Shown here: one piece after another, positions 16,523 through 61,204 of the stretch | Numbering within the stretch: the first letter of the stretch is position 1 | How the letters are laid out: the number at the start of each line of letters is the position of its first letter | From: Micromonospora sp. WMMD812 | GTDB lineage: Bacteria; Actinomycetota; Actinomycetes; Mycobacteriales; Micromonosporaceae | DNA: 64,000 bases | Direction: 5' to 3' | Assembly: GCF_027497215.1 (NCBI RefSeq) | Contig: NZ_CP114904.1 | Location: 3,742,001-3,806,000 of the forward strand | Notes under the pieces: generated by a model | Databases searched by the model: none | What the model was told of the DNA's origin: nothing | What the model saw: only the letters and a program-made list of their open reading frames with translations | Translations under genes and position numbers: made by a program

Positions 16523-16578
16523 TGATCAAGACGTTCGCGTCAGCCAGTGCCCGGCTTCTGACCCGAACCTCTTGATCA
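16523..16578. repeat. Intergenic palindrome PAL-1 (TGATCAAGA subfamily)
   Basis: 21-bp arms 16523-16543 and 16558-16578 with two mismatches and a 14-base loop; the outer end is TGATCAAGA. The right arm contains the mazG stop codon (16576-16578). It shares its arm with PAL-5. Confidence 0.85.
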
Positions 16579-17583
16579 GCTCTGGTCGGTGGGTGGGGCG
16601 GTGGGGGTTGGGGCCTCGGCCTCGGCGGCGCGGACGGCTTCGGCGTACGCGAACGTCGTCCGGCGGAGGGCGGCCTCCGGGTCGAGGCCGGCCTCGCGGG
16701 CGGCGGCGACCGTGGACAGCAAGCTCGCGCCCAGGCGCGCCTCCGGGTCGACCTGGCCCTCGGCGAGCGGCGGCGGCACGGCCAGCCCGACCCGACCGGC
16801 GCGTTCCAGGATCTTCGCGGCCAGGGCGAGCGCGGGCTGACTCAGCGCAACGCCGTCGAGCACCGACCCACGCGCCTTCTCCGCGCGCTTGATCCGCTCC
16901 CAGTTGGCGGTGATCTCCTCCAGCGTCCCGGCCTCGGCGCCGGCGAAGACGTGCGGGTTGCGACGGACCATCTTGTCGACCAACCCGCCGGCCACGTCGT
17001 CCACCGTCCACCGCTCGCCCTCGGGCAGCTCCTCGGCCAGCCGGGCGTGCAGCAACACCTGGAGCAGCACGTCACCCAGCTCCTCGCGGAGCGCGTCGGT
17101 GTCGCCGGCGCTGATCGCGTCGTACGCCTCGTAGCACTCCTCGATCAGGAAGCCGGCGAGGCTCCGATGCGTCTGCGCCCGCTTCCACGGATCGCCGCCC
17201 GGGGAGGCCAGCCGGTCCATCACCGTCACCGCGTCGAGCAGCCGGGCGCCCGGCGGGTCCCATGAGCCGTACATCAGCTCCAACTCGGCCAGACCCGGTT
17301 CGCGGGCCAACCGAAGACCCAGCTCGCGGGCGACCGCCTCGTCGCCGGTCGGTCCGGCCAGCCAGACCGCGGTGCGATGCTCCGCGACCGCGTCCAACAG
17401 CGCCTGGGTCACGCCCTCGGTCACCACGGTGACCTGGCCGCCCGCGCTGCGGATCGCCACGGTGAGCTCGCTCTCCGCGCCGGTCAGCACCGGCGCGGAC
17501 CGTACGACGTCCCAGGCGGCCGCGGTCAGCAGCCCGGCCGGCAACCGCGGCGAGGTGACCAGCAGGACGATCCGATCGGTCAT
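16576..17583 (-). CDS. mazG: Nucleoside triphosphate pyrophosphohydrolase MazG
   Basis: 335 residues. The MazG core begins near residue 145: HRSLAGFLIEECYEAYDAI with EELGDVLLQVLLHARLAEE, giving the ExxE and ExxD magnesium ligands. It hydrolyses NTPs and dNTPs, cleaning the pool or lowering alarmone levels. The first 120 residues form an extra domain typical of actinobacterial MazG. ATG 17583 follows the lipoprotein gene after two bases. The C-terminal tail is Ala/Pro/Thr-rich and its stop codon falls in palindrome PAL-1, so the very end of the protein may have been reshaped by that element. Confidence 0.92.
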   Translation of the reverse strand: MTDRIVLLVTSPRLPAGLLTAAAWDVVRSAPVLTGAESELTVAIRSAGGQVTVVTEGVTQALLDAVAEHRTAVWLAGPTGDEAVARELGLRLAREPGLAELELMYGSWDPPGARLLDAVTVMDRLASPGGDPWKRAQTHRSLAGFLIEECYEAYDAISAGDTDALREELGDVLLQVLLHARLAEELPEGERWTVDDVAGGLVDKMVRRNPHVFAGAEAGTLEEITANWERIKRAEKARGSVLDGVALSQPALALAAKILERAGRVGLAVPPPLAEGQVDPEARLGASLLSTVAAAREAGLDPEAALRRTTFAYAEAVRAAEAEAPTPTAPPTDQS

Positions 17584-17585
17584 GC

Positions 17586-18377
17586 TCAGCTGTCGGTGCC
17601 CGCGGTCTCCGCCGGCTCGGCCGACGGCAGCGGCTCGGGGGTGGAGATGTCGGTGACCGGACCGTTCTGGTCGATGTACGGCAGCGAGTAGAAGACCAGC
17701 GCCTGGCCGGTGCTGACCACCGACGGCACCCCGACCGTGCGGAAGCGCGGGTTGACCGCGATGTCCGCCCGCTCGGCCTCCTCCTGAAGCGCGGCGCTGA
17801 GCGCCGACGCGGCCCGGACGAAACCGCCGTCGCCGAACGCCTGCCGGACCTGGTCCACCGAGAGCCCGCCGTCGATCGCGCCGGTCTTGGCGATCGCCCG
17901 GTAGACGGCCATCACCGCGTCGTCGCTGAGCTGCTCGGCCAACGGCAGCTGCTGGCTGAGCGCCTGCGAGACGTCGATCCACTCGCCCCAGAGCCGCGTG
18001 TACTCCGCCGCGGCGGGCACCCGCAGGCCCTGCTGGAGCTCCTCCGGGCTGACCTGGTCCGGCACCTGGACGTTCTTCGCGGCCGCCACCCGCTTGCCCA
18101 GCTCCAGGCTGATCAGCAGATTGAGCACGTCCTGGCGGGTCACCGAGGAGCGCAGCTGGTCCGGCGACGGAGTCGCCCCGGCCTGGCTCGCCTCCTGGCG
18201 GACCGCCTCGCCGTACTTCGCCTGCAGGTCGTCGTAGATCTCGTCGACCCGCGCGGTCGACCAGCTGGTGTCACCGACGTACGCGGCGACGTCCGGAGCG
18301 GACTTCCCACAGGCGGCGAGGGAGAGGACACCGAGGGCCGCGACGCTGGCGGCGGCGATCAGACGGCGAGCACGCAT
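17586..18377 (-). CDS. SurA N-terminal-domain lipoprotein (putative exported chaperone)
   Basis: 263 residues. The signal MRARRLIAAASVAALGVLSL ends in the lipobox LAAC, so the mature protein is lipid-anchored outside the membrane. The SurA-like N-terminal domain starts VAAYVGDTSWSTARVDEIYDDL and includes VTRQDVLNLLISLELGKRVA. No clear PpiC isomerase domain is seen, so it may act only as a chaperone. ATG 18377 is preferred to GTG 18386. It lies between mfd and mazG, a standard actinobacterial arrangement, and is probably co-transcribed with mazG. Confidence 0.85.
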   Translation of the reverse strand: MRARRLIAAASVAALGVLSLAACGKSAPDVAAYVGDTSWSTARVDEIYDDLQAKYGEAVRQEASQAGATPSPDQLRSSVTRQDVLNLLISLELGKRVAAAKNVQVPDQVSPEELQQGLRVPAAAEYTRLWGEWIDVSQALSQQLPLAEQLSDDAVMAVYRAIAKTGAIDGGLSVDQVRQAFGDGGFVRAASALSAALQEEAERADIAVNPRFRTVGVPSVVSTGQALVFYSLPYIDQNGPVTDISTPEPLPSAEPAETAGTDS

Positions 18378-18456
18378 GACCGCCACTCTCTCATGCCCAA
18401 CCCCCAGCTGTGACGCCCCCCACCCTGCGCACCGTCCACCCCGTACGACCGCCGGC

Positions 18457-18511
18457 GATCATGAAGTTGTTGCCCGCCGCGCCGGCGTGTCGCGACAACA
18501 ACTTCATGATC
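18457..18511. repeat. Intergenic palindrome PAL-2 (GATCATGAAGTTGTTG subfamily)
   Basis: Perfect 16-bp arms 18457-18472 and 18496-18511; arm GATCATGAAGTTGTTG is identical to that of PAL-9. It lies 24 bases downstream of the mfd stop. Confidence 0.9.
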
Positions 18512-18534
18512 ACCGCGTCGTGCGGGGGCGTGGG

Positions 18535-22191
<3,657 letters not shown>

Positions 22192-22347
22192 GTGACATCA
22201 CTTCCAGGGGAGTCGGCACGCGTAGTCGTGACACACGACAGATGCCCCTCGTCCGGCCGGACGGGGGGTGCACGCCCACCAGCCTATCCCCGCCCACCGA
22301 CCTGCCGCCCCCATCCCGCGCCCACCCCGTCCGCCCCTGCCCATCCG

Positions 22348-22455
22348 CAAGATCCACGCAACTTCGCGGAAAGTGCTGCCTGCGGCGTGCGGGAGGCAGC
22401 ATCTTCCATGAAGTTGCCGCCACCTTCAGGCGGGGCCGCGGAATGGTGGATCTTG
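22348..22455. repeat. Large nested palindrome PAL-3 between divergent mfd and cyclase genes
   Basis: The outer stem CAAGATCCAC/GTGGATCTTG (22348-22357, 22446-22455) encloses an interrupted stem made of GCAACTT/AAGTTGC (22358-22364, 22411-22417) and TGCTGCCT/AGGCAGCA (22374-22381, 22394-22401). The arm resembles PAL-10. It lies in a divergent intergenic gap, 34 bases before the cyclase start. Confidence 0.85.
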
Positions 22456-22488
22456 ACCCGGGGCGACGGGTCGTGGTCGGGTGTCCGC

Positions 22489-23403
22489 ATGGGTGAGCAG
22501 TGGCGGGCGCAGTTCGACGCGGAGATCAGCTTCGCCAACGGTGGCGGGCTGCGGACCGAAGGGTTCCGGCTGGACATCCCCGGCCGGGAGATCAGCGACG
22601 ACGACCTCGCCGCGCTCCTGGTCCGGCATCTCGGCCTGCTGATGGTCGCCGAGGTACGGATCACCGACAAGACGGTCATCCAGGAGCCGCACAAGGGTGG
22701 CCGAGGAGTCGCCGCCGCCGAGTCCGGCACCGGCCGCCGGCTCGTCGAGCTGAGTCACGTGATCGGCGACGGGATGACCACCCTGCCCGGCTGGCCGGCG
22801 CCCCGGATCGGCGACTGGCTGACCTTCGCCGCGTCCCGGGCCAACTACGCCCCGGGCACCGAGTTCCGGGTGGCCCGGATCGACATGATCGCCAACACGG
22901 GCACCTACCTGGACACCCCGGCGCACCGCTGGGCCGACGGGGTCGACCTGAGCGGCGTGCCGCTCGACCGGCTCGTGGACCTGCCCGGCGTGGTGGTCCG
23001 CGTGCCGGCCGGCACCCGCGCGGTGGACCGGCTCATGCTGGCCCCGTACGACGTGGCCGGGCGCGCGGTGCTGCTGCACACCGGCTGGGACGCGAACTTC
23101 GGCACCGACCGGTACGGCGCCCCGGAGGCGCCCTATCTCACCGGTGACGCCGCCCGGGCCCTCGCCGACGCGGGCGCGGCGCTGGTCGGCATCGACTCGA
23201 TCAACATCGACGACATGAGCCCGGCGGCCGGCGGGGAGCGCCCCGCGCACAGCACGCTGCTGGCCGCCGGCATCCCCATCGTGGAGCACCTGACCGGCCT
23301 GGACGCGCTGCCCCCGGCCGGCTTCCGGTTCACCGCCGCACCGCCGCGGGTCGCCGGCATGGGCACCTTCCCGGTCCGCGCCTACGCCGTCGTCGAGGAC
23401 TGA
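22489..23403 (+). CDS. Cyclase-family (kynurenine-formamidase-like) hydrolase with an N-terminal extra domain
   Basis: 304 residues. The C-terminal 220 are a cyclase/kynurenine formamidase-like metal hydrolase, starting RLVELSHVIGDGMTTLPGWP, with the metal-site motif IANTGTYLDTPAHRW near residue 145. The canonical HxGTHxDxPxH has H at two positions where this protein has N and Y, a variant seen in part of the family. The first 80 residues (FDAEISFANGGGLRTEGFRL, VRHLGLLMVAEVRI) form a separate small domain that looks like a free-standing actinobacterial protein, so this may be a fusion. Substrate unknown; PAL-3 lies just upstream. Confidence 0.82.
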   Translation: MGEQWRAQFDAEISFANGGGLRTEGFRLDIPGREISDDDLAALLVRHLGLLMVAEVRITDKTVIQEPHKGGRGVAAAESGTGRRLVELSHVIGDGMTTLPGWPAPRIGDWLTFAASRANYAPGTEFRVARIDMIANTGTYLDTPAHRWADGVDLSGVPLDRLVDLPGVVVRVPAGTRAVDRLMLAPYDVAGRAVLLHTGWDANFGTDRYGAPEAPYLTGDAARALADAGAALVGIDSINIDDMSPAAGGERPAHSTLLAAGIPIVEHLTGLDALPPAGFRFTAAPPRVAGMGTFPVRAYAVVED

Positions 23404-23406
23404 CGG

Positions 23407-24447
23407 TCAGTAGCGCACCGAGATCCGGCGCTCGACCGCGTCGACCCGGACCTCGCCGCCGTACGGGACGATCAGCTGCGGGTCGGTGTGGCCGAGGTCA
23501 ACGTCGAAGACCACCACCGGCTCGTCGGCGTACGCGGCGAGCACCCGGGTGACGGCCGCCCGCTGGGCGTCCGCCCAGGCCCGCCGCTCGTCGAGGGTGT
23601 GCGGGCGGTCGAAGTCCCACGCCTTGGCCCGGCCGACCAGCACCGCCGGGAAGCCGGCGAGCAGCCCGCGCTCCCCCATGTTGCGCAGGATCCGGAACAC
23701 CTCGGTGGCGGACGGAAGCTCCTGCGAGGTCTCGACCATCAGCACCGAGCCGGCCAGTTCCGCGGCGGACGGGACCCGGTCCGTCGCCATGAGCCAGTGC
23801 AGGATCTCCAGGTTGCCGCCCCACGTGCGTCCCTGCACCACCGTCGCCGGGCCCTGCCAGCGCCAGCCCTCACCGGGGAGCATCAGCGGTTCGTCGGTGA
23901 GCGTGGCCGGGTCGCGCCAGTCGTTCGGCTGGTCGCCCCACTCGGTCGCCGGCGTCAGGTCGTACCAGCCGGAGGTGAACAGCGCCGCACGCAGCGAGTC
24001 GAAGGTCAGCGGGTGCGGCGCGCCCGGCCGGCCGAGGTGCACCAGCACCGACCCGCCGTGGTAGGCCACGATGCCCAGTCGGTAGAGGTGGTTGAGGACG
24101 TTGGTGTTGTCCGAGTAGCCGAAGTACGGCTTCGGGTTGGCCCGTAGCACCGCGTCGTCCAGGTGCGGGGTGACGGTGATCAGGTCGTCGCCGCCGACCG
24201 TGGCCAGCACCGCGGTGATCGACGGGTCGGCGAAGGCGGCGGTGAGGTCCCGGGCCCGGTCGCGCGGGTCGGCGCCCGCCATCCGGGTGGTCGGGTACTC
24301 CACCGGTTCCAGGCCGGACTCGTCGCGCAGCCGGCGCAGTCCCAGCTCGTACACGTGCGGGAAGGCGGCCGGCAGTCCGGCGGACGGCGAGACCACGGCG
24401 ACCCGGTCGCCCGGGCGCGGCTTGGGCGGGTAGCGCAGCGACACCAT
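23407..24447 (-). CDS. S66 peptidase, LD-carboxypeptidase / MccF-like
   Basis: 346 residues. The N-terminal Rossmann-like part begins GDRVAVVSPSAGLPAAFPHV. The nucleophile serine lies in PYFGYSDNTNVLNHLY near residue 108, preceded by VLATVGGDDLITVTPHLD. The catalytic Glu is probably in TWGGNLEILHWL and the His in VDLGHTDPQLIVPYGG near the end. Family members trim the terminal D-Ala of muropeptide tetrapeptides, or, as MccF, cleave microcin-like aminoacyl nucleotides; the longer linker fits the MccF-type side. The ATG at 24447 lies six bases after TAGCTT, indicating a leaderless message. It is convergent with the cyclase gene. Confidence 0.85.
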   Translation of the reverse strand: MVSLRYPPKPRPGDRVAVVSPSAGLPAAFPHVYELGLRRLRDESGLEPVEYPTTRMAGADPRDRARDLTAAFADPSITAVLATVGGDDLITVTPHLDDAVLRANPKPYFGYSDNTNVLNHLYRLGIVAYHGGSVLVHLGRPGAPHPLTFDSLRAALFTSGWYDLTPATEWGDQPNDWRDPATLTDEPLMLPGEGWRWQGPATVVQGRTWGGNLEILHWLMATDRVPSAAELAGSVLMVETSQELPSATEVFRILRNMGERGLLAGFPAVLVGRAKAWDFDRPHTLDERRAWADAQRAAVTRVLAAYADEPVVVFDVDLGHTDPQLIVPYGGEVRVDAVERRISVRY

Positions 24448-24453
24448 GATCAG

Positions 24454-24459
24454 AAGCTA
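24454..24459 (-). promoter_or_regulatory. Leaderless -10 box of the S66 peptidase gene
   Basis: TAGCTT read leftward, six bases before ATG 24447. Confidence 0.45.
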
Positions 24460-24518
24460 ACCGAGCGGCCAAGCGATTTCCGGGCGGTGAATCACCACGA
24501 ACGCCGCGAAAGCGGTCC

Positions 24519-24524
24519 TAGGCT
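24519..24524 (+). promoter_or_regulatory. -10 box for a leaderless leader ORF and ppc
   Basis: TAGGCT followed by six bases (GGCGGC) and ATG 24531, the same spacing as other leaderless starts in the window. It probably starts the ppc transcript. Confidence 0.45.
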
Positions 24525-24530
24525 GGCGGC

Positions 24531-24812
24531 ATGGTTGCTCCGCGAGCCTGCGTCGGGGTCGCCGCGCCACCGCGTCCCGCGTCCCGGCCGCCGGTGGTGG
24601 AGAACACCCCCGGGACCGCCGGGCCGCCGCGCCCGCCGGTGGCTGAGATCACCCGACCGGTCCGGGGGGCGCGACCAGCGGCGGGACCGGACCGCGCGGG
24701 CCCGGTGGAAGGTGATCTCCTGGGGGCCCTCCTTACATCCCGGTCCGCGCGGATACCATCCAGGGAGTCGGACAGCGCTGTCCTTCGTCTCGACGTAAGG
24801 AGCGCACCGTGA
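24531..24812 (+). CDS. Candidate 93-residue leader ORF overlapping the ppc start
   Basis: A 93-codon frame whose ATG sits exactly at a leaderless position after TAGGCT and whose TGA overlaps the ppc GTG as GTGA. Both ends look like real translation signals. Against it, the product is Pro/Arg/Ala-rich ([20 protein letters not shown]), has no recognisable domain, and may be chance in GC-rich DNA. If translated it would couple ribosomes to ppc, although ppc also has its own AAGGAG. Low confidence. Confidence 0.3.
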
Positions 24813-27659: not shown

Positions 27660-27676
27660 GGGCAGCATGCATGCGA

Positions 27677-27720
27677 GCGTGATGACTCGGAGGCATATTT
27701 ATGCCGCAGAGTCATCACGC
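27677..27720. repeat. Intergenic palindrome PAL-4 between convergent genes
   Basis: Perfect 12-bp arms GCGTGATGACTC (27677-27688) and GAGTCATCACGC (27709-27720), with an inner stem GGCATA-TT-TATGCC (27692-27705). It could also act as a bidirectional terminator for ppc and the gene ending at 27816. The core is unusually AT-rich. From 27721 to 27815 I see nothing else clear. Confidence 0.85.
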
Positions 27721-27815
27721 TTCTCGGTCGAACCCGAGCCAGCCGACGCCACGGCGGTCGCCGCCGGTCCGGTCGCCCGGGCCGGCACGGGCGGATCGTG
27801 CACCCGCCGGTGGAC

Positions 27816-28577: not shown

Positions 28578-28584
28578 GGGCACG

Positions 28585-31619: not shown

Positions 31620-31677
31620 GTGATCAAGAGGTTTGCGTCAGGAAACGCGCCTCGGGTGACGCAAACTTCTTGATCAC
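31620..31677. repeat. Intergenic palindrome PAL-5 in the divergent ispH-xseA gap
   Basis: 21-bp arms 31620-31640 and 31657-31677 with one mismatch; arm GTGATCAAGAGGTTTGCGTC, the same subfamily as PAL-1. It ends 12 bases before the xseA -10 box, so it covers that promoter's -35 region. Not a terminator position. Confidence 0.9.
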
Positions 31678-33184: not shown

Positions 33185-33247
33185 CCGATCAGCGGTGGTG
33201 ATGGGCGATGCGGTGGCACCCATCCCCCACCACGACCGCGTGATCGG
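33185..33247. repeat. Intergenic palindrome PAL-6 between convergent xseB and lipoprotein genes
   Basis: Outer CCGATCA (33185) pairs with TGATCGG (33247); inner GCGGT, GGTG and ATGGG pair with CCCAT, CACC and ACCGC, with bulges. Right arm about 33219-33247. Looser than the others but with the same GATC ends; it may serve as a terminator. Confidence 0.65.
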
Positions 33248-41406: not shown

Positions 41407-41866
41407 GGCGTACCGTCGCTTCCCGCTCGCGGATCAACGCGTGCTGATGCCGACGGTAGGGCGGCGGTGCCGCCCGGGCAAGCATGTCCCAGGACGCCGC
41501 GCGAAAGCTCGCGACGCCGCCGCCACACACCCCCCGAGGCCCGAGCCCTTCCGAGGCCCGAACCCTGCCCGCGGCCCGAGCCCTTCCCCGGGCCCGAGCC
41601 GCCGCATCGAGGCTCGAGCTGACCCGGACCCAACCCGCGGCACCAAGGCCGAGCCGGGACCGGGGACCGCATCGAGGCGGCAACATCCCTGAAGTTGCCC
41701 CCTCGGAGGATTGGGAGACAGCAACATCCGGAAAGTTGCGCAGATCATGAGCACGCCCGGCATGGGCGCGCGCTGCGCCGCGCCGGGGCGGGGCGCGCCC
41801 GGGCGGGCTGGGGCGGGGCGGGGCGGGGCCGGGCGGGCTGGGGCGGAGCGGCGGCGCCCGCTGGCG
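41407..41866. other. 460-base gene-free region with GC-rich repeats
   Basis: Between the reductase start and the rhomboid stop. It holds degenerate copies of a CGAGGCCCGAGCCCTT-type unit (about 41537-41620), the two small PAL-7 hairpins, and a G-rich run GGGCGGGGCGGGGCGGGGCC with GGGCGGGCTGGGGC units (about 41790-41850). No frame with coding character and no RNA gene recognised. The reductase promoter presumably lies near 41410-41460. Confidence 0.6.
41679..41739. repeat. Twin hairpins PAL-7 (GCAAC-N9-GTTGC x 2)
   Basis: GCAACATCCCTGAAGTTGC (41680-41698) and GCAACATCCGGAAAGTTGC (41721-41739) are direct repeats of a small hairpin and pair weakly with each other. They share the CAACTT/AAGTTG core with PAL-3 and PAL-10. 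A degenerate member at best. Confidence 0.5.
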
Positions 41867-50360: not shown

Positions 50361-50427
50361 ACCGTTGATCATGAGGTTCGTGGCGGTTTCGATCTCCGGA
50401 GGCGTCGCGAACCTCATGATCAACGGT
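50361..50427. repeat. Intergenic palindrome PAL-8 (GATCATGAGGTTCG)
   Basis: Perfect 20-bp arms 50361-50380 and 50408-50427 (ACCGTTGATCATGAGGTTCG). It lies 18 bases after the stop of the leftward gene ending at 50446; same GATCATGA core as PAL-2 and PAL-9. Confidence 0.92.
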
Positions 50428-50445
50428 TCGAGGAACCCCGGGGGA

Positions 50446-51303: not shown

Positions 51304-51340
51304 GGGATCCGATGATGCCCCACCCGGGGGCGCGGTACAC

Positions 51341-53185
51341 CTAGCGCTGCGGCTGCTCCGCGTCGAGCCGTGCCCGCAGCGCGTCCAGCTCCGCCCAGAG
51401 CACGCCGGGCAGCTTGTCACCGAACTTCTCGAACCACTCGGTGACCAGCGGCAACTCGTCGCGCCACTCCTCCGGGTCGACCTTCAGCGCGATCCGGACG
51501 TCCTCCGGGGTCATGTCCAGCCCGTCGACGTCGAGCGCGTCGGGTGCCGGCACCATGCCGATCGGGGTCTCCACCGCCTCGGCGCTACCCTCGATCCGCT
51601 CGATGACCCACTTCAGCACGCGGGAGTTCTCGCCGAAGCCGGGCCAGAGGAAGTTGCCCTCCGGGTCCTTGCGGAACCAGTTGACGTAGTAAATGCGCGG
51701 CAGCTTGGACTCGTCGCCGTCCGCGCCCTTGCCCATCTCGATCCAGTGCCGGAAGTAGTCGCCGCCGTTGTAGCCGATGAACGGCAGCATGGCCATCGGG
51801 TCACGGCGCACCACGCCGACGGCGCCGGACGCGGCGGCCGTGGTCTCCGAGGAGAGCGTGGCGCCCATGTAGACACCGTGGACCCAGTCGCGCGCCTCGG
51901 TCACCAGCGGGACGGTGTCGCGCCGGCGGCCCCCGAAGAGGATCGCGTCGATCGGCACGCCGTTCGGGTCGTAGTAGTCCTCGGCGAGGATCGGGCACTG
52001 GGTGATCGGGGTGCAGAACCGGCTGTTGGCGTGCGAAGAGAGGTTGTCGCTCTCCGGCGTCCAGTCGTTGCCCTTCCAGTCGATCAGGTGCGCCGGCGGC
52101 TCACCCATGCCCTCCCACCAGATGTCCCCGTCGTCGGTCAGGGCGACGTTGGTGAAGATGGAGTTGCCGCGGTCCAGCGTCCGCATCGCGTTGGCGTTGG
52201 TCTTCCAGTCGGTGCCGGGCGCGACGCCGAAGAGGCCGTACTCCGGGTTGACGGCGTAGAGGCGGCCGTCCGGGCCGAAGCGCATCCAGGCGATGTCGTC
52301 GCCGATGGTCTCGACCTTCCAACCGGGGATGGTCGGTTCGAGCATGGCGAGGTTGGTCTTGCCGCAGGCCGACGGGAAGGCGCCGGCGATGTGGTAGACC
52401 CGGCCCTCCGGCGAGGTGATCTTCAGGATCAGCATGTGCTCGGCGAGCCAGCCCTCGTCACGCCCCATCACACTGGCGATCCGCAGCGAGTAGCACTTCT
52501 TGCCGAGCAGCGAGTTGCCGCCGTAACCGGACCCGTACGACCAGATCTCCCGGGTCTCCGGGAAGTGCGAGATGTACTTGGTCTCGTTGCAGGGCCAGGC
52601 GACGTCCTGCTGGCCGGGGGCGAGCGGGGCACCGATCGAGTGCAGGGCGTGCACGAAGTCGGCGTCGTCACCCATCGCCTCGAGGATCTTCGCGCCCATC
52701 CGGGTCATGATGCGCATGGAGGCGACCACGTAGGGGCTGTCGGTGATCTCGACGCCGAACATGGGGTTCTTCGCCTCGACCGGGCCCATGACGAACGGAA
52801 TGACGTACATGGTGCGGCCACGCATCGACCCGCGGTAGAGGTCCGTCATGACGCGCTTCATCTCGGCCGGCGCCATCCAGTTGTTGGTGGGGCCGGCGTC
52901 CGCCTCGTCCACCGAACAGATGTAGGTGCGCTCCTCGACCCGGGCGACGTCCGACGGGTCGGTCCGCGCGTAGAACGAGTTCGGCTTCTTCTCGGGGTTC
53001 AGGCGGACGAGGGTGCCCGCGTCCACCAGCTCGTCGGTGAGACGACGCCACTCCTCGTCGGACCCGTCAACCCAGACCACCCGCTCGGGGGTGGTCAGTT
53101 CCGCGACCTCACGGACCCAGGCGAGCAGTTTGGGATGGGACGTCGGGGCCTGATCGATACCCCGAACAGTAGCCGGAGCAACCAT
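51341..53185 (-). CDS. pckG: Phosphoenolpyruvate carboxykinase (GTP)
   Basis: 614 residues, normal for the GTP-dependent type. It converts oxaloacetate to PEP. The P-loop and reactive cysteine are in [20 protein letters not shown] near 285; GTP and metal residues in [20 protein letters not shown] and [23 protein letters not shown] 53185 follows AAGGAG; the frame is open to 53464 but carries no homologous residues. A promoter at 53283-53311 and a Crp-type palindrome at 53321-53338 lie upstream, as expected for a gluconeogenic gene under catabolite control. Confidence 0.97.
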
Positions 53186-53282
53186 GACACATCTCCTTGT
53201 GGTCGACGCTGACCGATCTATGGGATGCACGAGTCTCGGCGCGCGAACCGCGTCGCCTTCGTGAAAACCTGGGATTGCGCTC

Positions 53283-53311
53283 AGCGTAAACCGGGCAGCC
53301 CCCCGAGTCAG
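53283..53311 (-). promoter_or_regulatory. Candidate promoter of pckG
   Basis: Read leftward: -35 CTGACT (53306-53311), 17-bp spacer, -10 TACGCT (53283-53288); leader about 90 bases. Confidence 0.45.
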
Positions 53312-53320
53312 TGGGACTGG

Positions 53321-53338
53321 TTGTGAAGAACTGCACAA
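53321..53338. promoter_or_regulatory. Crp-type 18-bp palindrome upstream of pckG
   Basis: TTGTGAAGAACTGCACAA fits TTGTG-N8-CACAA; one base off TGTGA-N6-TCACA. It lies just upstream of the -35, about 53 bases before the predicted start. Same form as 43540-43557. Confidence 0.55.
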
Positions 53339-53377
53339 GGTACGGCCACGCTGCGGCATCACGATCTGATACCCGTT

Positions 53378-53399
53378 TTTGCGCGCAGTTTCACGCAAA
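53378..53399. promoter_or_regulatory. Inverted repeat TTTGCG-N10-CGCAAA upstream of pckG
   Basis: A 6-bp dyad about 100 bases before the predicted pckG start. It recalls the TTTGC/GCAAA half-sites of actinobacterial carbon regulators such as RamB, but the match is partial. The rest of the divergent gap 53400-53610 shows no clear element. Confidence 0.35.
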
Positions 53400-53612
53400 T
53401 CCTGCGGTGAACCTTCGGCGCCCCTCGATCGTGAGGTGACCGTCGGACGCCCGATCGCGGTCACCCGGAAACCACCCGGCTCCGCCGATCCGGTCCGGAT
53501 CCGCTGTCCCTCCGGTTACGCTCCGTTCATGTCCACCGCGGACGCCGGAGGGCCTGCCGATGCCGGCCGCCCCCGCTCGCTGTTGCTACCCGTGCGACGT
53601 GTCAGCAGCCGG

Positions 53613-53618
53613 TAGAGT
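53613..53618 (+). promoter_or_regulatory. Leaderless -10 box of the first GtrA gene
   Basis: TAGAGT, six bases (CTGCGC) before GTG 53625. Confidence 0.5.
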
Positions 53619-53624
53619 CTGCGC

Positions 53625-54173
53625 GTGGCCGCCACGATGACCCGGGAGCGATCGGGCTCTCCACCGACCCGCCGAGGTCTCGTCCGCGCGCTGCTGGACC
53701 GGTTCGGCCACCTCGTCCACGAGCTGAGCAAGTTCGCCACCGTGGGCGGGATCGCCTTCCTCATCGACTTCGCGCTGTTCAACTACCTGACCACGGCACA
53801 GGGCCTGGAGCAGGTCACCGCGAAGACCATCTCCACCGTGATCGCCGCGACCGTCGCCTTCCTGGGCAACCGGTTCTGGACCTGGCGACACCGCCAGCGC
53901 AACAACCCGGCCCGCGAGTACGCGCTGTTCTTCTTCTTCAACGGTGTCGGCCTCGGCATCGCCGTGGCCTGTCTCGCCCTCAGCCGCTACGGGCTGGGCA
54001 GCATCTGGCCGGACGTGTTCCAGACCCCGCTCGCCGACAACATCGCCAGCTTCGTGGTCGGCACCGGGCTGGGGACGCTGTTCCGATTCTGGTCCTACCG
54101 ACGATTCGTCTTCGTCGAGGCGGGAACCCCAGCCGTTCCGGAAGCGAAGCCTCACCGAGGCCACGGGGCGTGA
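53625..54173 (+). CDS. GtrA-family membrane protein, copy 1
   Basis: 182 residues with four membrane helices, the GtrA fold: LSKFATVGGIAFLIDFALFN, STVIAATVAFLGNRFWTWRH, YALFFFFNGVGLGIAVACLA, and FVVGTGLGTLFRFWSYRRFV. GtrA proteins are thought to move polyprenyl-phosphate-linked sugars across the membrane for glycosylation of wall polymers. GTG 53625 is leaderless. A second GtrA gene follows after 63 bases with its own promoter. No glycosyltransferase is adjacent. Confidence 0.88.
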   Translation: MAATMTRERSGSPPTRRGLVRALLDRFGHLVHELSKFATVGGIAFLIDFALFNYLTTAQGLEQVTAKTISTVIAATVAFLGNRFWTWRHRQRNNPAREYALFFFFNGVGLGIAVACLALSRYGLGSIWPDVFQTPLADNIASFVVGTGLGTLFRFWSYRRFVFVEAGTPAVPEAKPHRGHGA

Positions 54174-54223
54174 CCTACCGCCCATCCCGACCGGCCGGAG
54201 CCGGTCGGCCCAACCCACTGCCC

Positions 54224-54229
54224 TAAGGT
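54224..54229 (+). promoter_or_regulatory. Leaderless -10 box of the second GtrA gene
   Basis: TAAGGT, seven bases (GTTCCGC) before ATG 54237. It overlaps the alternative GTG at 54228, which argues against that longer start. Confidence 0.5.
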
Positions 54230-54236
54230 GTTCCGC

Positions 54237-54959
54237 ATGCGTCTTGTCCGCCTGCTGCCTGAGCGCTGGCAGAAGTTCATCCACGAGGCGCTCAAATTCG
54301 GCATCGTCGGCGGCATCAACACCGTCATCAATTACGCGGTGTTCAATGCGCTGGCACTGACCGTTTTCGTCGACGGCCAACTGAAGGCCACCGTGATCGC
54401 CACCGTGGTGGCCACGATCACGTCGTACCTGATGAACCGTCACTGGACGTACCGGGATCGACCCAAGTCTGCGCTCCGGCGCGAGTACGTCCTGTTCTTC
54501 CTTTTCAACGCCACCGGCCTGCTCATCGAGCTGGGCGTACTCGCCGCGGCGAAGTACGGCCTCGGGGTGACCAGCCTGCTGGCGCTGAACGTGGCCAAGA
54601 CCGCCGGCGTCCTGCTGGGCACGATGTTCCGGTTCTGGTCCTACCGGACGTTTGTCTTCCAGCCCGCCCCCGTCCCGGACGAGAAGAACTGGCACCGCCT
54701 TCCCCGGGACGAGTGGGACACGATGGCGGAGATGGACCCGGTGGCCGAGCTGGCCGAGTCGGTCACCGAGTTGGAGGAGTCCCAGCCGCCGCCGGCCGGC
54801 GACAAGCCGGGCCGGGCGAGCGCGGCGCCGGCCGCCGGCCAGTCCGGCACGCCGGCCCAGGGGCGTCCCGGCGCACTGGACGCTCGACTGGCGACGGACC
54901 TGGACGCCGAGTTCGCCGCCGAGTTCCAGGCCGCCACGCGCCGAGCACCCCGCCGCTAA
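54237..54959 (+). CDS. GtrA-family membrane protein, copy 2, with long cytosolic tail
   Basis: 240 residues. Four GtrA helices (ALKFGIVGGINTVINYAVFN, ATVVATITSYLMNRHWTYRD, YVLFFLFNATGLLIELGVLA, TAGVLLGTMFRFWSYRTFVF) are followed by about 100 extra residues, acidic and Ala/Pro-rich (DEWDTMAEMDPVAELAESV), absent from copy 1. The tail may bind a cytosolic partner. ATG 54237 fits the leaderless -10 TAAGGT. Paralogue of the preceding gene; both contain the motif FRFWSYR-(R/T)-FVF. Confidence 0.87.
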   Translation: MRLVRLLPERWQKFIHEALKFGIVGGINTVINYAVFNALALTVFVDGQLKATVIATVVATITSYLMNRHWTYRDRPKSALRREYVLFFLFNATGLLIELGVLAAAKYGLGVTSLLALNVAKTAGVLLGTMFRFWSYRTFVFQPAPVPDEKNWHRLPRDEWDTMAEMDPVAELAESVTELEESQPPPAGDKPGRASAAPAAGQSGTPAQGRPGALDARLATDLDAEFAAEFQAATRRAPRR

Positions 54960-55007
54960 ACCCCCACCCCACCGCTCCGGCCCCGAACCCCGGTCTGACA
55001 CCACCCT

Positions 55008-55070
55008 GGTTGATCATGAAGTTGTTGCCGCCGAGCACGGCATGTCGGGGCAACAACTTCATGATCAACC
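55008..55070. repeat. Intergenic palindrome PAL-9 between convergent genes (GATCATGAAGTTGTTG subfamily)
   Basis: Perfect 22-bp arms 55008-55029 and 55049-55070, starting GGTTGATCATGAAG. The 16-bp core is identical to PAL-2, 36.5 kb away. It lies between the GtrA copy 2 stop and the PH-domain gene stop. Confidence 0.93.
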
Positions 55071-55096
55071 TGTAGACCGCGTTCGCCGCGGCAGGA

Positions 55097-55669
55097 TCAG
55101 GCCGAGGGGTCGCGCAGGGGCTTGCCCTCGCTCATGTCGGCGAGGATCTCGCGCATCTCGCCGTCGCCGAGCGAGTGCTTGTCGTGCTGTGCCTCCACCA
55201 GCTCGTACAGCTTGGTCTGCACCTGGCCCACCCGGGGCACGTCGGCCAGGACGGACTGGCCGCGCTCGCCGGCCGACTCGATGGTGAGCGTGCCGCAGCC
55301 GAGGAGCCGCTCGACGAACCGCTGGTTCATCGCATGGTCGTTGACCCGAGTGAGCGGGATGTCCCGCCGATCCCGGGAGAACACGCCGTGCTGGAGCAGC
55401 ACCCGCTCGTTGGTGAAGAGGTAGTGCGTGGTGCGCCAGACCAGGAACGGCCAGAGACCGAACCACAGCACCGCGACCAGCGCGACGACGCCGATCACGG
55501 CCAGGGCGACGGAGCCACCGCCGCCCGAGGGGAGCAGGAGCACGCCGGCCACCACCGCGGCGACGGCGAGCACCAGCACGACGACCGGCCGGATCAGCGC
55601 CTTCCAGTGCGGGTGCAGGTGCAGAACGACATGCTCGTCCTCGGTGAGCACGTCTTCGGGGAACGCCAC
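55097..55669 (-). CDS. PH-domain (bPH2) membrane protein
   Basis: 190 residues. Two close membrane helices (PVVVLVLAVAAVVAGVLLLP and ALAVIGVVALVAVLWFGLWP) are followed by a bacterial PH-like domain: TTHYLFTNERVLLQHGVFSR, DIPLTRVNDHAMNQRFVERL, GCGTLTIESAGERGQS. The C-terminal helix reads QTKLYELVEAQHDKHSLGDG. GTG 55669 follows GAGGAGG by five bases. Such proteins are common in actinomycetes with unsettled function, perhaps membrane stress or protein secretion. Confidence 0.87.
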   Translation of the reverse strand: MAFPEDVLTEDEHVVLHLHPHWKALIRPVVVLVLAVAAVVAGVLLLPSGGGGSVALAVIGVVALVAVLWFGLWPFLVWRTTHYLFTNERVLLQHGVFSRDRRDIPLTRVNDHAMNQRFVERLLGCGTLTIESAGERGQSVLADVPRVGQVQTKLYELVEAQHDKHSLGDGEMREILADMSEGKPLRDPSA

Positions 55670-55990
55670 GGAAACCTCCTCGCAGGAACGGACGGGCTGA
55701 CCGTAACCGGTCACCGCACGTCCGGGCATCAGCCGCGCGGGCGGCCCCGGGCAGCCTTCGCGATCTTGCACTTTTCGTCCCTGGTTCGCGCCGTCCTCCC
55801 ATTCGCCGGGACACCCGGGCAAGACCGCGGCCGAGACCGCCGGGCGGCGCGGGCGGTCGAGGAGCCCGGGCGGCGCAGAAGTCGGCGGCGGTCGACGGGG
55901 CCGGCAGCGGAGGCGGCGGAAGCCGCGATCACCTACCGGGACCGAGGGATCCGGGTGAGCGCGCGAAGGCGGCGGAGGTGGCGGAGGTCC

Positions 55991-56866
55991 TCAGCGGAGG
56001 TGGAGGACGTCGCCGGCGGCCAGGTGGCGTTGGCCGTCGGGGGTGTCGACCAGCAGCTGCCCGTCGGCGTCCACGCCGACGGCGGTACCGGTCAGCTCGT
56101 CGCCGCCGGGCAGGAGCACCCGCACCGGCCTGCCGACCGTGGCGCAGGCGGCGAGGTACGCCTCCCGCAGGCCGCTGGTCACCGCGTCGCCACCGGCCGT
56201 GCGCCAGCGGTCGTACCAGTCGGCGAGCCCGCGCAGCAACGCCCGCAGCAGGGGGTCCCGGTCGGTCGCCGCGGCGCCGGCCAGTTGCAACGAGGTGGCC
56301 GGCAGCCCGGTCGGGTTCTCCGGCAGCTCGTCGGCGCGAAGCGTGACGTTGAGCCCGATGCCGAGCACGACAGCCGAGGGCTGGGCGGCGGACCCCCCCG
56401 GCACCGCCTCGGCGAGCACCCCGGCGCACTTGGCATCCCCGATCAGCAGGTCGTTCGGCCACTTCAGCGCCGCGTCCAGCTCCGCGAGCCGGGCCACCGC
56501 CTCGACCAGCGCGACGCCGGCCAGCAGCGGCAGCCAGCCGTACCCGGTGGGTGGCGCCGCCGGCCAGCCGCGCTCCGGGGCGGCCTCGCCGGGCCGGAGC
56601 AGCACGCTGGTCGCGATGCCCGCCCGCGGCGGCGACTGCCAGACCCGACCGCGGCGACCGCGCCCGGCGGTCTGCCGCTCGGCGACCACCACCAGGCCCT
56701 CCGGCTCACCGGTCAGGGCCGCCTCGGCCGCGTCGGCGTTGGTCGAGCCGGTCTCGGCCCGCAGCTCCAGCCGGTTCCAGGGGCCGTACGGGGTGACCAG
56801 CGCGCGCCGAAGCCGCGCCGCCGACAGCGGCGGGCGGTCCAGATCGGTGTACGGCGAGCCCGGCAT
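55991..56866 (-). CDS. birA: Biotin-[acetyl-CoA-carboxylase] ligase, monofunctional
   Basis: 291 residues. It attaches biotin to the carrier domain of acyl-CoA carboxylases. Substrate motifs: ETGSTNADAAEAA, AGRGRRGRVWQSPPRAGIAT (the biotinyl-AMP loop GRGRxGRxW), and LKWPNDLLIGDAKCAGVLAE (KWPND). No N-terminal HTH is present, so it is a ligase but not a repressor. ATG 56866 lies six bases after TAGGCT, a leaderless start. Divergent from the carboxylase beta gene, as is usual in actinomycetes. Confidence 0.95.
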   Translation of the reverse strand: MPGSPYTDLDRPPLSAARLRRALVTPYGPWNRLELRAETGSTNADAAEAALTGEPEGLVVVAERQTAGRGRRGRVWQSPPRAGIATSVLLRPGEAAPERGWPAAPPTGYGWLPLLAGVALVEAVARLAELDAALKWPNDLLIGDAKCAGVLAEAVPGGSAAQPSAVVLGIGLNVTLRADELPENPTGLPATSLQLAGAAATDRDPLLRALLRGLADWYDRWRTAGGDAVTSGLREAYLAACATVGRPVRVLLPGGDELTGTAVGVDADGQLLVDTPDGQRHLAAGDVLHLR

Positions 56867-56872
56867 CCCGCC

Positions 56873-56878
56873 AGCCTA
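56873..56878 (-). promoter_or_regulatory. Leaderless -10 box of birA
   Basis: TAGGCT read leftward, six bases (GGCGGG) before ATG 56866. Confidence 0.5.
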
Positions 56879-56969
56879 CGGCCCACCCCGCAGCCACCTG
56901 CCGGGCCTCCAGGAACGCGCCGGTGGAAGCTGAGGCGAACTGCACAACGGCGGCGTCCTGAACCATCGT

Positions 56970-56975
56970 TATATT
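56970..56975 (+). promoter_or_regulatory. Leaderless -10 box of the carboxylase beta gene
   Basis: TATATT, six bases (CCCTGG) before GTG 56982; the closest to TATAAT among the -10 boxes here. Confidence 0.6.
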
Positions 56976-56981
56976 CCCTGG

Positions 56982-58565
<1,584 letters not shown>

Positions 58566-58616
58566 GCTGACGCCGGTCGGCGCCGGCGGCGCCGCCGTTG
58601 TCGTCGGCGGCGCCAA

Positions 58617-58690
58617 GATCCGTGCAACTTCGGGGAAAGTGTCGCCTCCGGGTTGCGGGAGGCCGCAGTTTCCGCGAAGTTGCACGGATC
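58617..58690. repeat. Intergenic palindrome PAL-10 between convergent genes (GATCC-GCAACTTCG subfamily)
   Basis: 33-bp arms 58617-58649 and 58658-58690 with four mismatches around an eight-base loop; arm starts GATCCGTGCAACTTCG. PAL-3 shares GATCC-N2-GCAACTTCG-N-GGAAAGTG. The longest continuous stem in the window. Confidence 0.93.
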
Positions 58691-58700
58691 AACGGCGGAC

Positions 58701-59561
58701 TCAGCAGCCCGGATTCGCCGCCTGACACATCCGGCTGGCCGCCACCGTGGCGAGCTGGAGCAGTTCGGACTCGGTGCCGTGCCGCCCGAGGCCGAGCACC
58801 GCGACGAGGTCGCCGACCCGAATGATCGCCTTGTAGGTCGGCGGGGTCACGTCGCCGAACGTCTCGCCGGTCTTCATGTCGCGGGCCGGGGACACGAGGT
58901 GTTGCACCATGGCGGCGTCGTCCCCCGCGAAGTCCCGCCGGACGATCCGCCACTGGTGCACCGCCTCCGCCGTGCCGGCCCGCCCCTTCCACTCGTACGG
59001 CCCGACGCTGCGCCACTGCACGCACGGGGCGATGATCTGGTCCAAATCGGCGAGGAACGTCTCGGCTCCCCCCGGCGTGAGCCGGTAGACGTCCTGCATC
59101 GCCACCACGTCGCTGGGCGCGAGGTCGACGCCGTCCGGCCGCGCGGTCAGGAGGGTCTGCGATCGCGACCAGCGGGACGGCCAGGTCTGCGACAGCCCCT
59201 GGCTCGTCCGGCAGGCGCCGAGCATGTCGTCTATCCGGATCGGCTCCGCCAGCCCCGAGTCGGTGAGCTGGGTGTCCGCCGACGCCAGCCCGAGATCGGT
59301 CGGCCGGAGCAGCGCCTCGGTGGTGATCTCCGCACGGACGGGCACGCTCGGACCGACCGAGGCGGTCGGAGGTGTCGAGGACCGGCCCGGTGCGACGACC
59401 GCGATGGCGGAGACGCCGGCGAGCGCCAGCGCGGCGGCCGCCGCGGCGACGTTGCGCCAGTTGCGCCGCCGGGCGCGGGCGCGGATCTCCTCCGGACCGG
59501 GCCAGCGCACGTCCCGCAGGTCCCGCTGCACCTTCTCGACGAACGCCAGGTCGTCACGCAT
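58701..59561 (-). CDS. Membrane protein partner of the ECF sigma factor
   Basis: 286 residues. A cytosolic start (MRDDLAFVEKVQRDLRDVRW) with an Arg-rich stretch is followed by one membrane helix (VAAAAAALALAGVSAIAVVA) and a long extracytoplasmic domain with several Cys (GACRTSQGLSQTW, APCVQWRSVGPYEWKG, RMCQAANPGC). It lacks the HxxxCxxC zinc motif of classic anti-sigma factors, so it is not a ZAS protein, but its position suggests control of or by the sigma factor. ATG 59561 overlaps the sigma gene by eight bases. Confidence 0.78.
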   Translation of the reverse strand: MRDDLAFVEKVQRDLRDVRWPGPEEIRARARRRNWRNVAAAAAALALAGVSAIAVVAPGRSSTPPTASVGPSVPVRAEITTEALLRPTDLGLASADTQLTDSGLAEPIRIDDMLGACRTSQGLSQTWPSRWSRSQTLLTARPDGVDLAPSDVVAMQDVYRLTPGGAETFLADLDQIIAPCVQWRSVGPYEWKGRAGTAEAVHQWRIVRRDFAGDDAAMVQHLVSPARDMKTGETFGDVTPPTYKAIIRVGDLVAVLGLGRHGTESELLQLATVAASRMCQAANPGC

Positions 59562-60054
59562 CGGCGGCCTCCTCCAGATCAGAGACGGCGAGCAGCCCGG
59601 CGAGCGCGGCACGCCCCCGAGAGAGGCGGGCCTTGACGGTGCCCACCGGCGCCTCGGTCTCGCGGGCCACCTCGGCGACCGGCATCCCGAGCAGGTAGTA
59701 GAGGGCGATCGCGGTCCGTTGCTCCTCCGGGAGCCGGCGCAGCGCCGCCACCACCTCGACCGTCTCGGTGCCCGGGCCGGGAGTCGTCTCGACGGCGCCG
59801 TGCCGCAGGTAGGCGCGGGCTCGGCTGCGCAGGCTGCGCCACCGGCTCACCGCGATCCGGGTGGCGACCACCCGTGTCCACGCCTCCGGGTCGTCGTAGC
59901 CGCTCACCGTCGACCAGCGCTGCCAGACCCGGATGTACGCCTCCTGGACCGCGTCCTGCGCCTCGGCGAGGTCGCCGGTGAGTACGTAGACGAAGCCGAG
60001 CAGCCGTTGCCGGCTGCCCCGGTAGAACTCGTCGAATCCCTCGACGTCCGGCAC
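59554..60054 (-). CDS. ECF RNA polymerase sigma factor, SigE family
   Basis: 166 residues. Region 2 (FDEFYRGSRQRLLGFVYVLT, DAVQEAYIRVWQRW) and region 4 (RRLPEEQRTAIALYYLLGMP, VAEVARETEAPVGTVKARLS) are both clear. It matches the SigE-family ECF group common in Micromonospora and Streptomyces. GTG 60054 follows GGAGGT. It overlaps the membrane partner downstream, so the two are co-translated. No target promoter recognised in the window. Confidence 0.9.
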   Translation of the reverse strand: MPDVEGFDEFYRGSRQRLLGFVYVLTGDLAEAQDAVQEAYIRVWQRWSTVSGYDDPEAWTRVVATRIAVSRWRSLRSRARAYLRHGAVETTPGPGTETVEVVAALRRLPEEQRTAIALYYLLGMPVAEVARETEAPVGTVKARLSRGRAALAGLLAVSDLEEAADA

Positions 60055-60117
60055 CTGGTTACCTCCCCCGTGACGGTCGCAGGGGACACGCGCCGGCCGG
60101 TGCCGGCGGTTGCCTGC

Positions 60118-61101
60118 TCAGCCGAGCAATTTCGCCAGCTCGGCGCGGGGAAACTCGCCGGCCGGGATCCGCTCCCGCACCGCCCGGCGTACCGCCTGCT
60201 GCACTGCGGCGTTGGCCGGCGTCGGTACGCCGTGCAGGCGACCGAGCAGCACGATCTCGCCGTTGAGCTGGTCGGTCTCGGCCGAGCCGGCGCCCCGGGC
60301 CAGGCTCTGCCAGGTGGAGCCGCCGGCCCGCTGCTCGCCGCCGACGGGCCGGTGCTGCACGAGATCGCCCCGCGCCGTCGCCTCCTCGGCCCGATCGGTG
60401 TGCGCGATCCCGGCCGCGGCCAGCACCGCCTCGCCCTCGGCCCGGATCCGGTCGGCCAGGCCGTCCGGGGCGTCCCGGCCGAACAGCGCCTGGAGGGCGT
60501 TGCCCAGGTTGCCCAGCAGCTTGCCGTACTTCCAACGCATCACGTCCGGCCGGACGGGCGCGACGAAGCCGGCGGCGGCCAGCTCGGCGGCGACCGTACG
60601 GTCGGTGTCGTCCGATCCGGACGGATAGCGGCCGACGTGCAGGATCCCGGGGTGCGGGTGACCGTTGGCCACGACCACACCCGGTTCGAGGTGGGTCGCC
60701 GGCAGCCACACGCAGACGCCGTGCACCCGCGCGAAGAACCGCAGCGCGGCCGGCTCGTTCGCGACGCCGTTCTGCGCGGTGAGCAGTGGCAGCCGCTCGC
60801 CGGCCGTGCCGCCGCCCTCCACCGGGGCGTCCACCCAGCTGGCCAGCGCCGCCTCGGTGTCCTGCGACTTCACGGTGAGCACCAGCACGGTGTCGGCGGG
60901 CAGTGGGCGACCCTCCGGGCGGTCCAGGGCGGGGAGCCGGGCGATGTGCTCCTGCTCGGGCTGGCGCAGGGTCAGTCCACGCTCCCGGATCGCCGCCAGA
61001 TGCGCCCCCCGAGCCACCAACGTGACGCCGTACCCGGCGGACGCCAACCGCACCCCGATGGTGCCCCCGACAGCCCCCGCCCCGATCACCACGTACCTCA
61101 T
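60118..61101 (-). CDS. Ketopantoate reductase family protein (ApbA/PanE-like)
   Basis: 327 residues. NADP motif VVIGAGAVGGTIGVRLASAG at the N-terminus, and the C-terminal helical domain with RWKYGKLLGNLGNALQAL, where the Lys is the usual catalytic residue. The family reduces 2-dehydropantoate to pantoate for coenzyme A, but many paralogues act on other 2-keto acids, so the substrate is not sure. ATG 61101 and GTG 61107 are both in frame; GGAG nine bases upstream suits the ATG. Confidence 0.82.
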   Translation of the reverse strand: MRYVVIGAGAVGGTIGVRLASAGYGVTLVARGAHLAAIRERGLTLRQPEQEHIARLPALDRPEGRPLPADTVLVLTVKSQDTEAALASWVDAPVEGGGTAGERLPLLTAQNGVANEPAALRFFARVHGVCVWLPATHLEPGVVVANGHPHPGILHVGRYPSGSDDTDRTVAAELAAAGFVAPVRPDVMRWKYGKLLGNLGNALQALFGRDAPDGLADRIRAEGEAVLAAAGIAHTDRAEEATARGDLVQHRPVGGEQRAGGSTWQSLARGAGSAETDQLNGEIVLLGRLHGVPTPANAAVQQAVRRAVRERIPAGEFPRAELAKLLG

Positions 61102-61125
61102 GCCCACACTCTCCCTTCAACCACA

Positions 61126-61204
61126 CCGTCGATCATGGACTTGTGGTGCCTGGATCGGGCCGATTCGCGGCTTTTATGAGGCACCACAATTGCATGATCG
61201 ACGG
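61126..61204. repeat. Intergenic palindrome PAL-11 (GATCATG, TTGTGGTGCC arm)
   Basis: 26-bp arms 61126-61151 and 61179-61204 with two mismatches; the arm begins CCGTCGATCATG and ends TTGTGGTGCCT. The loop contains an AT-rich TTTTATGA. It lies just after the M50 gene stop. Confidence 0.9.

Follow-up and report, generated by a model that had tools for sequence, protein, structure and literature searches.

The known repetitive extragenic palindromes (REPs) and similar repeats came to attention mainly through the REP-associated tyrosine transposases (RAYTs). The REPs and bacterial interspersed mosaic elements (BIMEs) of enterobacteria are linked to these enzymes, are extragenic, lie mostly 3′ of genes and form a hairpin both as RNA and as DNA. 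Miniature inverted-repeat transposable elements (MITEs) are also multicopy and non-autonomous, with inverted arms, while factor-dependent (Rho) terminators combine a 3′ position with a C>G bubble and with C-rich, G-poor RNA upstream. The main text of a 2013 study (PMC3733652) describes GTAG- and CGTC-tagged REPs as short dispersed extragenic palindromes with several families per genome. Here we analyze intergenic hairpins in a 64,000-nt stretch of Micromonospora sp. WMMD812 (NZ_CP114904.1, positions 3,742,001 to 3,806,000; hereafter the window), in which a first-pass annotation had reported a dispersed family of about eleven GATC-bounded palindromes, PAL-1 to PAL-11. The host genome (G000) is a single contig of 7,134,996 bases.

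Six of the eleven (PAL-1, 2, 5, 8, 9 and 11) form one superfamily, carrying GATC at both ends. Their positions are inherited and their contents are exchanged between subfamilies as species diverge. These hairpins have a conserved fold, in F1-type copies a loop motif that is kept across genera, and a surrounding halo of C/G skew reaching 100–150 nt. On this basis we tentatively favor, at somewhat short of even confidence, an explanation in which the six are REP-like non-autonomous 3′-end hairpins that are recurrently processed and rewritten as DNA. The most telling features are that a fixed position can change its subfamily and that the halo is symmetric. Subfamily labels F1–F8 were assigned in this analysis. 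F1 (PAL-2 and PAL-9) reads GTTGATCATGAAGTTGTTGCC with loop GCGACACGCCG, which is followed by about 8 free bases; F2 is the 77-nt form GATCATGCAGTTGTGGTGCC (PAL-11); F3 is GATCAAGAGGTTTGCGTCA (PAL-1 and PAL-5); F8 is GATCATGAGGTTTGCGGC with a loop near TTCGATCTCC (PAL-8); and F7, found outside the window, is GATCTTGCACTTT. PAL-3, 7 and 10 (F4) and PAL-4 (F5) are two separate repeats. The elements are as follows, in window positions.

PAL-1: 16523..16578, no strand; F3 (TGATCAAGACGTTCGCGTCA...), orthologous gap compared in 59 species; the mazG-like gene at 16576-17583 (minus strand) takes its stop codon from the TGA of PAL-1.
PAL-2: 18453..18515, minus strand; F1, loop CGACACGCCG on that strand, matched by the F1 model R1; about 20 nt beyond the mfd stop codon (gene at 18535-22191, also minus strand).
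PAL-3: 22350..22420, no strand; F4 (AAGATCCACGCAACTTCGCGGAAAG...), in the divergent gap between mfd and a cyclase gene, outside the main superfamily.
PAL-4: 27676..27721, no strand; F5 (AGCGTGATGACTC...GAGTCATCACGCT), without GATC, 3′ of ppc.
PAL-5: 31620..31677, no strand; F3, in the divergent gap between ispH and xseA, a gap holding F3 in the relative G131 and F8 in G120, L093 and L052.
PAL-6: 33185..33243, no strand; weak imperfect palindrome fitting no family by eye, membership unsupported.
PAL-7: 41679..41740, no strand; worn F4-like palindrome by eye.
PAL-8: 50361..50427, no strand; F8 (GATCATGAGGTTCG...), matched by R1.
PAL-9: 55008..55070, minus strand; F1, arms paired at 22 of 22 positions, loop CGACATGCCG on the minus strand, in a convergent gap.
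PAL-10: 58617..58690, no strand; F4, in a convergent gap, with no equivalent in the corresponding gap of G131.
PAL-11: 61126..61204, no strand; F2 (GATCATGGACTTGTGGTGCC..., 77-nt form), a gap that holds F2 in G131 as well.

Comparison of orthologous gaps, the check that the first-pass annotation proposed, showed positions shared with two relatives above expectation and contents that often differ. Among 221 gene adjacencies conserved with G131, 12 gaps of the host and 10 of G131 held an element and 6 were shared (0.54 expected, p=1e-6). Similarly, among 196 adjacencies conserved with G120, 11 gaps held an element in each genome and 5 were shared (0.62 expected, p=8e-5); both counts take in F4, F5 and unclassed GATC palindromes. 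By manual reading, the subfamily was the same in five of the six gaps shared with G131, the exception being gap 235 (F2 vs F7), and a seventh gap, 319, which fell below the score cut of the script, carried F1 in G131 and F3 in the host. With G120 the content differed in four of the five shared gaps: 235 (F2 vs F7), 319 (F3 vs F1), 322 (F4 vs another palindrome) and 329 (F3 vs F8), gap 258 alone agreeing (F1). Aligned three ways, gaps 235, 319 and 329 matched in part at the flanks and differed in the interiors.

The gap of PAL-1 was followed across the genus. Both flanking genes were present in 91 of 105 sequences, from which the 59 species rows were drawn after setting aside other genera and seven loci repeating a named species (L212, L214, L215, L218, L246, L248 and L249). 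We observed F3 in 18 species, F1 in 13, F8 in 9, F7 in 4, a worn F3 in one, another type in one and no element in 13, four rows (L211, L217, L069 and L084) having been re-labelled by eye. Placed on the mfd tree, the 44 classified elements of four subfamilies required at least 17 subfamily switches, and presence or absence required 6 changes. Clustering on this tree was judged against 500 shuffles: F3 was unclustered (352 as low), and F8 (27), F1 (7), F7 (1) and absence (0) were clustered. The sister loci L235 (F3) and L240 (F1) kept a nearly identical right flank directly outside the element. For 34 of the 41 rows carrying F1, F3, F8 or the worn F3, and for none of the four with F7, mazG terminated at the TGA within the TTGATCA of the element. 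In L243 an F1 outer arm encloses an F3 inner arm, and this copy looks like the product of repair from another copy.

The second feature is the halo. Toward the element from either side, C rose from about 0.37 to 0.57 and G fell from about 0.37 to 0.22, the effect being gone by about 150 nt; at 15–29 nt from the element the values were 0.57 and 0.24. In three genomes, skew over all positions within 60 nt was 0.37–0.60 for the 27 copies of F1, F2, F3, F7 and F8, compared with +0.05 at 120 non-GATC gap palindromes and about 0 for three F4 copies, two F5 copies and 11 further GATC palindromes. Within gaps, flanks bordering the start of the next gene (0.435, 18 flanks) were as skewed as those behind a stop codon (0.42–0.46; 0.424), and divergent flanks gave 0.60 (6 flanks). 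The in-gap halo is thus blind to the direction of transcription, which argues for a process at the DNA level. Along the strand that points away from the element, G went up, T was steady, and C and A went down; such base changes would fit a 5′-ended strand exposed as single-stranded DNA. Out-of-genus copies were skewed by +0.295 within 40 nt (23 loci, no local control).

The skew extended into coding sequence. In genes that run toward the element, third-position skew was about 0 at a distance of 240 nt and increased to 0.54 at 30–60 nt. F1 gave +0.74, +0.60 and +0.41 in successive 30-nt bins; for comparison, 513 gene ends lacking a palindrome gave 0.13–0.16 over their final 30 nt. At silent sites of the last 20 mazG codons, skew was 0.679 in 45 species with the element and 0.366 in 13 without (p=0.001); the difference persisted in codons 20–40 upstream (p=0.0008) and was absent in codons 80–160. 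The last 25 codons of mfd gave 0.214 with an element (6 species, one element being of another family) and -0.073 without (53 species, p=0.02). These mazG and mfd p-values treat species as independent, which they are not. Codons flanking element-less gaps, compared over all codon positions, were uninformative (0.137 vs 0.090 for G131, 0.167 vs 0.139 for G120). The mazG-like protein of the window (16576-17583) has, in many element-bearing species, a proline-rich C-terminal tail encoded by C tracts.

We then considered the fold and the loop. An alignment (A2) of 24 elements from six genera, from which five of 23 out-of-genus loci were left out, four for lacking the motif (L257, L265, L268 and L273) and one as a near-repeat (L272), paired at 96% of stem positions, vs 28–48% when slid. 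Two-sided changes occurred at 13 of 18 stem pairs and in 92 cells, vs 28 in shuffles, and the covariation score was reached by 0 of 500 shuffles; the search model itself rewards pairing, though not particular two-sided changes. Selection for the fold, one of the two possibilities offered by the first-pass annotation, is thereby supported. The most constant part of A2 was the loop motif GACACGCC, nearly invariant across the 24 elements, although this constancy is partly selected, the loci having been found by a motif-containing model and motif-less ones omitted. Among the 22 F1 copies of the host, 18 kept the motif at 10 of 10 letters and four at 9 of 10; outside the genus, 19 of 23 loci kept 9 or 10 letters. 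The F1-trained model also matched genomes from other families of the order. Within the order, the R2 model had hits in 54 of 200 genomes, representing 19 of 60 genera. Arms outside the genus varied, with GTTGATCATGCGGTTTCGGGAC in G071 and an inner arm differing copy by copy in G079. Hairpins of G091 (L258, L263, L270 and L274) had arms GCGAACTCGACGTTTTCG, without GATC, and the same CGACACGCCG loop. In other Micromonospora this loop was found with F3 arms (L286 and L295) and with F8-like arms (L280, L285 and L296); arms and loop are therefore modular. A role of the loop as a sense-strand RNA signal was rejected: in nine co-directional F1 copies (L187 omitted) it lay on the sense strand in six and on the antisense strand in three.

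The mechanism that we propose starts with the hairpin extruded as DNA, or becoming single-stranded at replication. It would then be recurrently nicked or cut by a putative nuclease, of the cell or of a mobile element, with the outer TTGATCA as its recognition site, joined in many copies by the loop. Repair may sometimes be templated by another copy, annealing via the shared outer arm TTGATCAWGARGTT, and would rewrite the interior in place, leaving strand-biased mutations in the flanks. The exchange between subfamilies sharing TTGATCAWGARGTT at both feet fits such repair, in which another copy would serve as template for the broken hairpin. Copies would persist mainly at 3′ ends, where they may do least harm or help as two-way transcription boundaries. 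In its strictest form, which we consider possible and no better than that, each hairpin would be an inherited hot spot of strand-asymmetric DNA processing, with a halo of about 100 nt and exchange at the same base pair, operating without a cognate RAYT.

Several observations weigh against processing and rewriting as DNA. At the PAL-1 site many other pairs have drifted too far for flank comparison, and that gap is short, so that ‘same place’ is partly forced. In the host genome the CGACACGCCG loop is tied to F1, the F2, F3, F7 and F8 copies having other loops. No long gene-carrying copy turned up in the genome scans, which were not designed for lone arms. Third-position skew was small in genes running away from the element (+0.13 at 60–90 nt, 79 bases; +0.02 at 90–120 nt), and this weaker signal leaves room for a transcript-level cause. 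Non-GATC palindromes gave a third-position background of +0.35, +0.21 and +0.16 in 30-nt bins, and two F5 copies gave +0.50 and +0.60 (11 and 35 bases); the silent-site signal is therefore partly a general gene-end effect. Where the PAL-1 site was empty, mazG was still skewed (the 0.366 above), and the difference between species with and species lacking the element reached 40–80 codons upstream (p=0.03). A test of skew on phylogenetically independent pairs was not significant, being underpowered with 5–6 pairs. Finally, the halo could be selected rather than mutational.

The position of the elements in the genome brings in the leading alternative. The R1 model, built on F1, scored 150 of 19,543 candidates in the host genome and returned 111 rows, read as 31 F1 places, 32 places belonging to F2, F3 or F8, a single truncated copy and a false match in coding sequence (E 0.9), which makes about 64 places; R1 also matched at E 1e-6 or better in 58 of 60 other genomes of the genus. 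These counts support the earlier proposal of spread as a repeated unit and show that the main family recurs across both the genome and the genus. Gene context was read at 58 places, a set omitting the coding false match (L201), two repeats (L209 and L210, of L019 and L028) and one locus without gene context (L009). The gaps were convergent at 37, co-directional at 18 and divergent at 3, so that 55 of 58 were not divergent. The background was a 440-kb area around the window, on the same chromosome, where a codon-usage script called 393 genes (86% coding). Only 42 of 255 gaps of at least 60 nt were convergent there (odds ratio 8.9, p=3e-12). The median distance from stop codon to element was 26.5 nt (quartiles 16 and 41; 90 distances).

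From this position a role as two-way transcription boundary is likely, and it is compatible with DNA processing. A stronger version would have the elements as selected bidirectional terminators, the hairpin being bordered on both sides by C-rich, G-poor RNA resembling Rho utilization (rut) sites, and the change of subfamily being turnover of terminators. We regard this as a serious candidate, if a doubtful one. The convergent excess and the short distance beyond the stop codon speak for it, as do the dominance of C over G in transcripts entering the hairpin and the clearer coding-sequence skew in genes running toward the element than away. Terminators, however, would not lead one to expect an in-gap skew as strong before the next start and in divergent flanks as behind a stop, nor +0.05 over all positions at the 120 other gap palindromes. 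The loop orientation in co-directional copies (6 sense, 3 antisense) and the absence of a U-tract by eye also count against them. The first-pass annotation had dismissed terminators on the ground that PAL-3 and PAL-5 lie between divergent genes. That argument is weak: PAL-3 belongs to another family, and only 3 of the 58 places are divergent.

The elements might otherwise be REPs or MITEs whose movement depends on a transposase, either HUH/RAYT or DDE, with terminal inverted repeats and target duplication. Near-identical short gap palindromes, dispersed, with several subfamilies per genome and presence or absence between species, are what such movement would give, yet we judge it improbable. 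Y1_Tnp/RAYT (PF01797) had no match in the host genome in a search that was positive in 5 of 14 control genomes, and the domain was present in 45 of 160 genomes of the genus and absent from 115, compared with elements in 58 of 60. A RAYT/IS200 origin was rejected on these counts, and the link to RAYT-associated REPs raised by the first-pass annotation is not supported. Some of the Y1_Tnp copies of the genus lie in open frames of 206–230 aa, with up to 9 matches per genome. Target duplication as a mark of MITEs was also rejected: over 57 sites the 6-mer match between flanks was 4.02, and re-pairing the flanks gave 3.89, with 17 of 200 re-pairings reaching the observed value. The idea that flanks lengthen the stem in a locus-specific way was tried and discarded similarly (inverted match 11.63 vs 11.37 after re-pairing, again 17 of 200).

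Binding sites of a chromosome-organizing or segregation protein reading the loop motif would account for its conservation across genera and for the uneven spread of F1, with one of 31 copies within the first 3.0 Mb of the 7.13-Mb chromosome (p=1e-6). We hold this to be very improbable: F2 and F7 lack the motif and yet occupy the same place with the same halo, the other 32 places showed no significant unevenness (8 of them within that first stretch, p=0.07), and the exchange in place would be left unexplained. Ordinary introgression, in which neighboring species would swap entire loci and pass on the element together with its flanks, we hold to be just as improbable. The partial clustering of labels on the tree is as expected from mixed descent and transfer, but the sisters L235 and L240 keep their right flank beside different elements, and gaps 235, 319 and 329 align in part at flanks around differing interiors.

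Other claims on the window were examined in the gaps between called genes of the same 440 kb, where palindromes were recovered at a score of at least 12. We found 76 vs 3.6 expected from 8 dinucleotide-shuffled gap sets, and 49 vs 0.125 at a score of at least 14; the palindromes are therefore well above chance. Nine of the eleven (PAL-1, 2, 3, 4, 5, 8, 9, 10 and 11) were recovered independently, PAL-6 (33185) and PAL-7 (41679) remaining below 12. GATC anchored 12 palindromes and each of the 15 other self-complementary tetranucleotides 0–5, in support of the GATC ends, from which PAL-4 nevertheless departs. A single family of eleven was ruled out. Six members do form one superfamily; F4 (PAL-3, PAL-10 and the worn PAL-7) and F5 (PAL-4) are distinct in sequence and in the flank-skew test, where they lack the all-position halo, and PAL-6 is weak. 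Of the proposed groupings, PAL-1 with PAL-5 held (both F3). PAL-2 and PAL-9 are both F1, but PAL-8, placed with them, is F8; and PAL-3 and PAL-10 are both F4, but apart from the main superfamily and without flank skew (3 copies). Rfam families gave no match at gathering score within the window. The pattern TTGATCATGA-N6..36-TCATGATCAA gave none in the genome because the true spacing is wider.

Some features of the two separate repeats and their gaps were read by eye. Behind ppc, the F5 palindrome (27676-27721; L052, L093, L107 and L057) kept an inner GGCATATTTATGACTC-like stretch, and its arms varied from one species to another through changes on both sides. Upstream of mfd, the gap (22191-22488 and orthologues) carried palindromes CAAGATC...GATCTTG with interiors very different between species, some species having CAAGATC alone; in L098 this gap contained several dozen consecutive G, perhaps an assembly artefact.

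Our results describe a large actinobacterial hairpin family whose presence does not track RAYT and a loop motif common to an order. Neither the subfamily exchange at fixed positions nor the symmetric skew halo was found in the literature searched, where the motif, palindromes of Micromonospora or Salinispora, and skew around palindromes also returned nothing relevant. The terms ‘GATC’, ‘Actinobacteria’, ‘Micromonospora’ and ‘Salinispora’ do not occur in the main text of PMC3733652. With the halo one can test from sequence alone whether a given palindrome is processed as DNA. The exchange opens the spread and replacement of REP-like hairpins to direct testing, in a soil bacterium that is harmless.

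In a loose sense the elements are REPs: many short gap palindromes, at about 64 places, nearly all outside divergent gaps. Like the REPs and BIMEs of enterobacteria they are extragenic and mostly 3′ of genes, unlike them they have no RAYT in the host genome. They resemble MITEs in being non-autonomous and multicopy with inverted arms; they differ in that no target duplication was found and in that the arms reach almost to the center. With Rho terminators they share the C-rich, G-poor flank and the 3′ position, whereas the in-gap skew is independent of the direction of transcription, though within genes the skew is clearer where these run toward the element. Compared with the GTAG and CGTC REPs, as these are described in the main text of PMC3733652, they are likewise dispersed extragenic palindromes of several families with a tetranucleotide near the foot of the stem. 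The tag of those REPs is at one end, whereas here GATC stands at both feet; and, unlike them, the present hairpins have no RAYT and combine a conserved asymmetric F1 loop with exchange at fixed positions and a skew halo.

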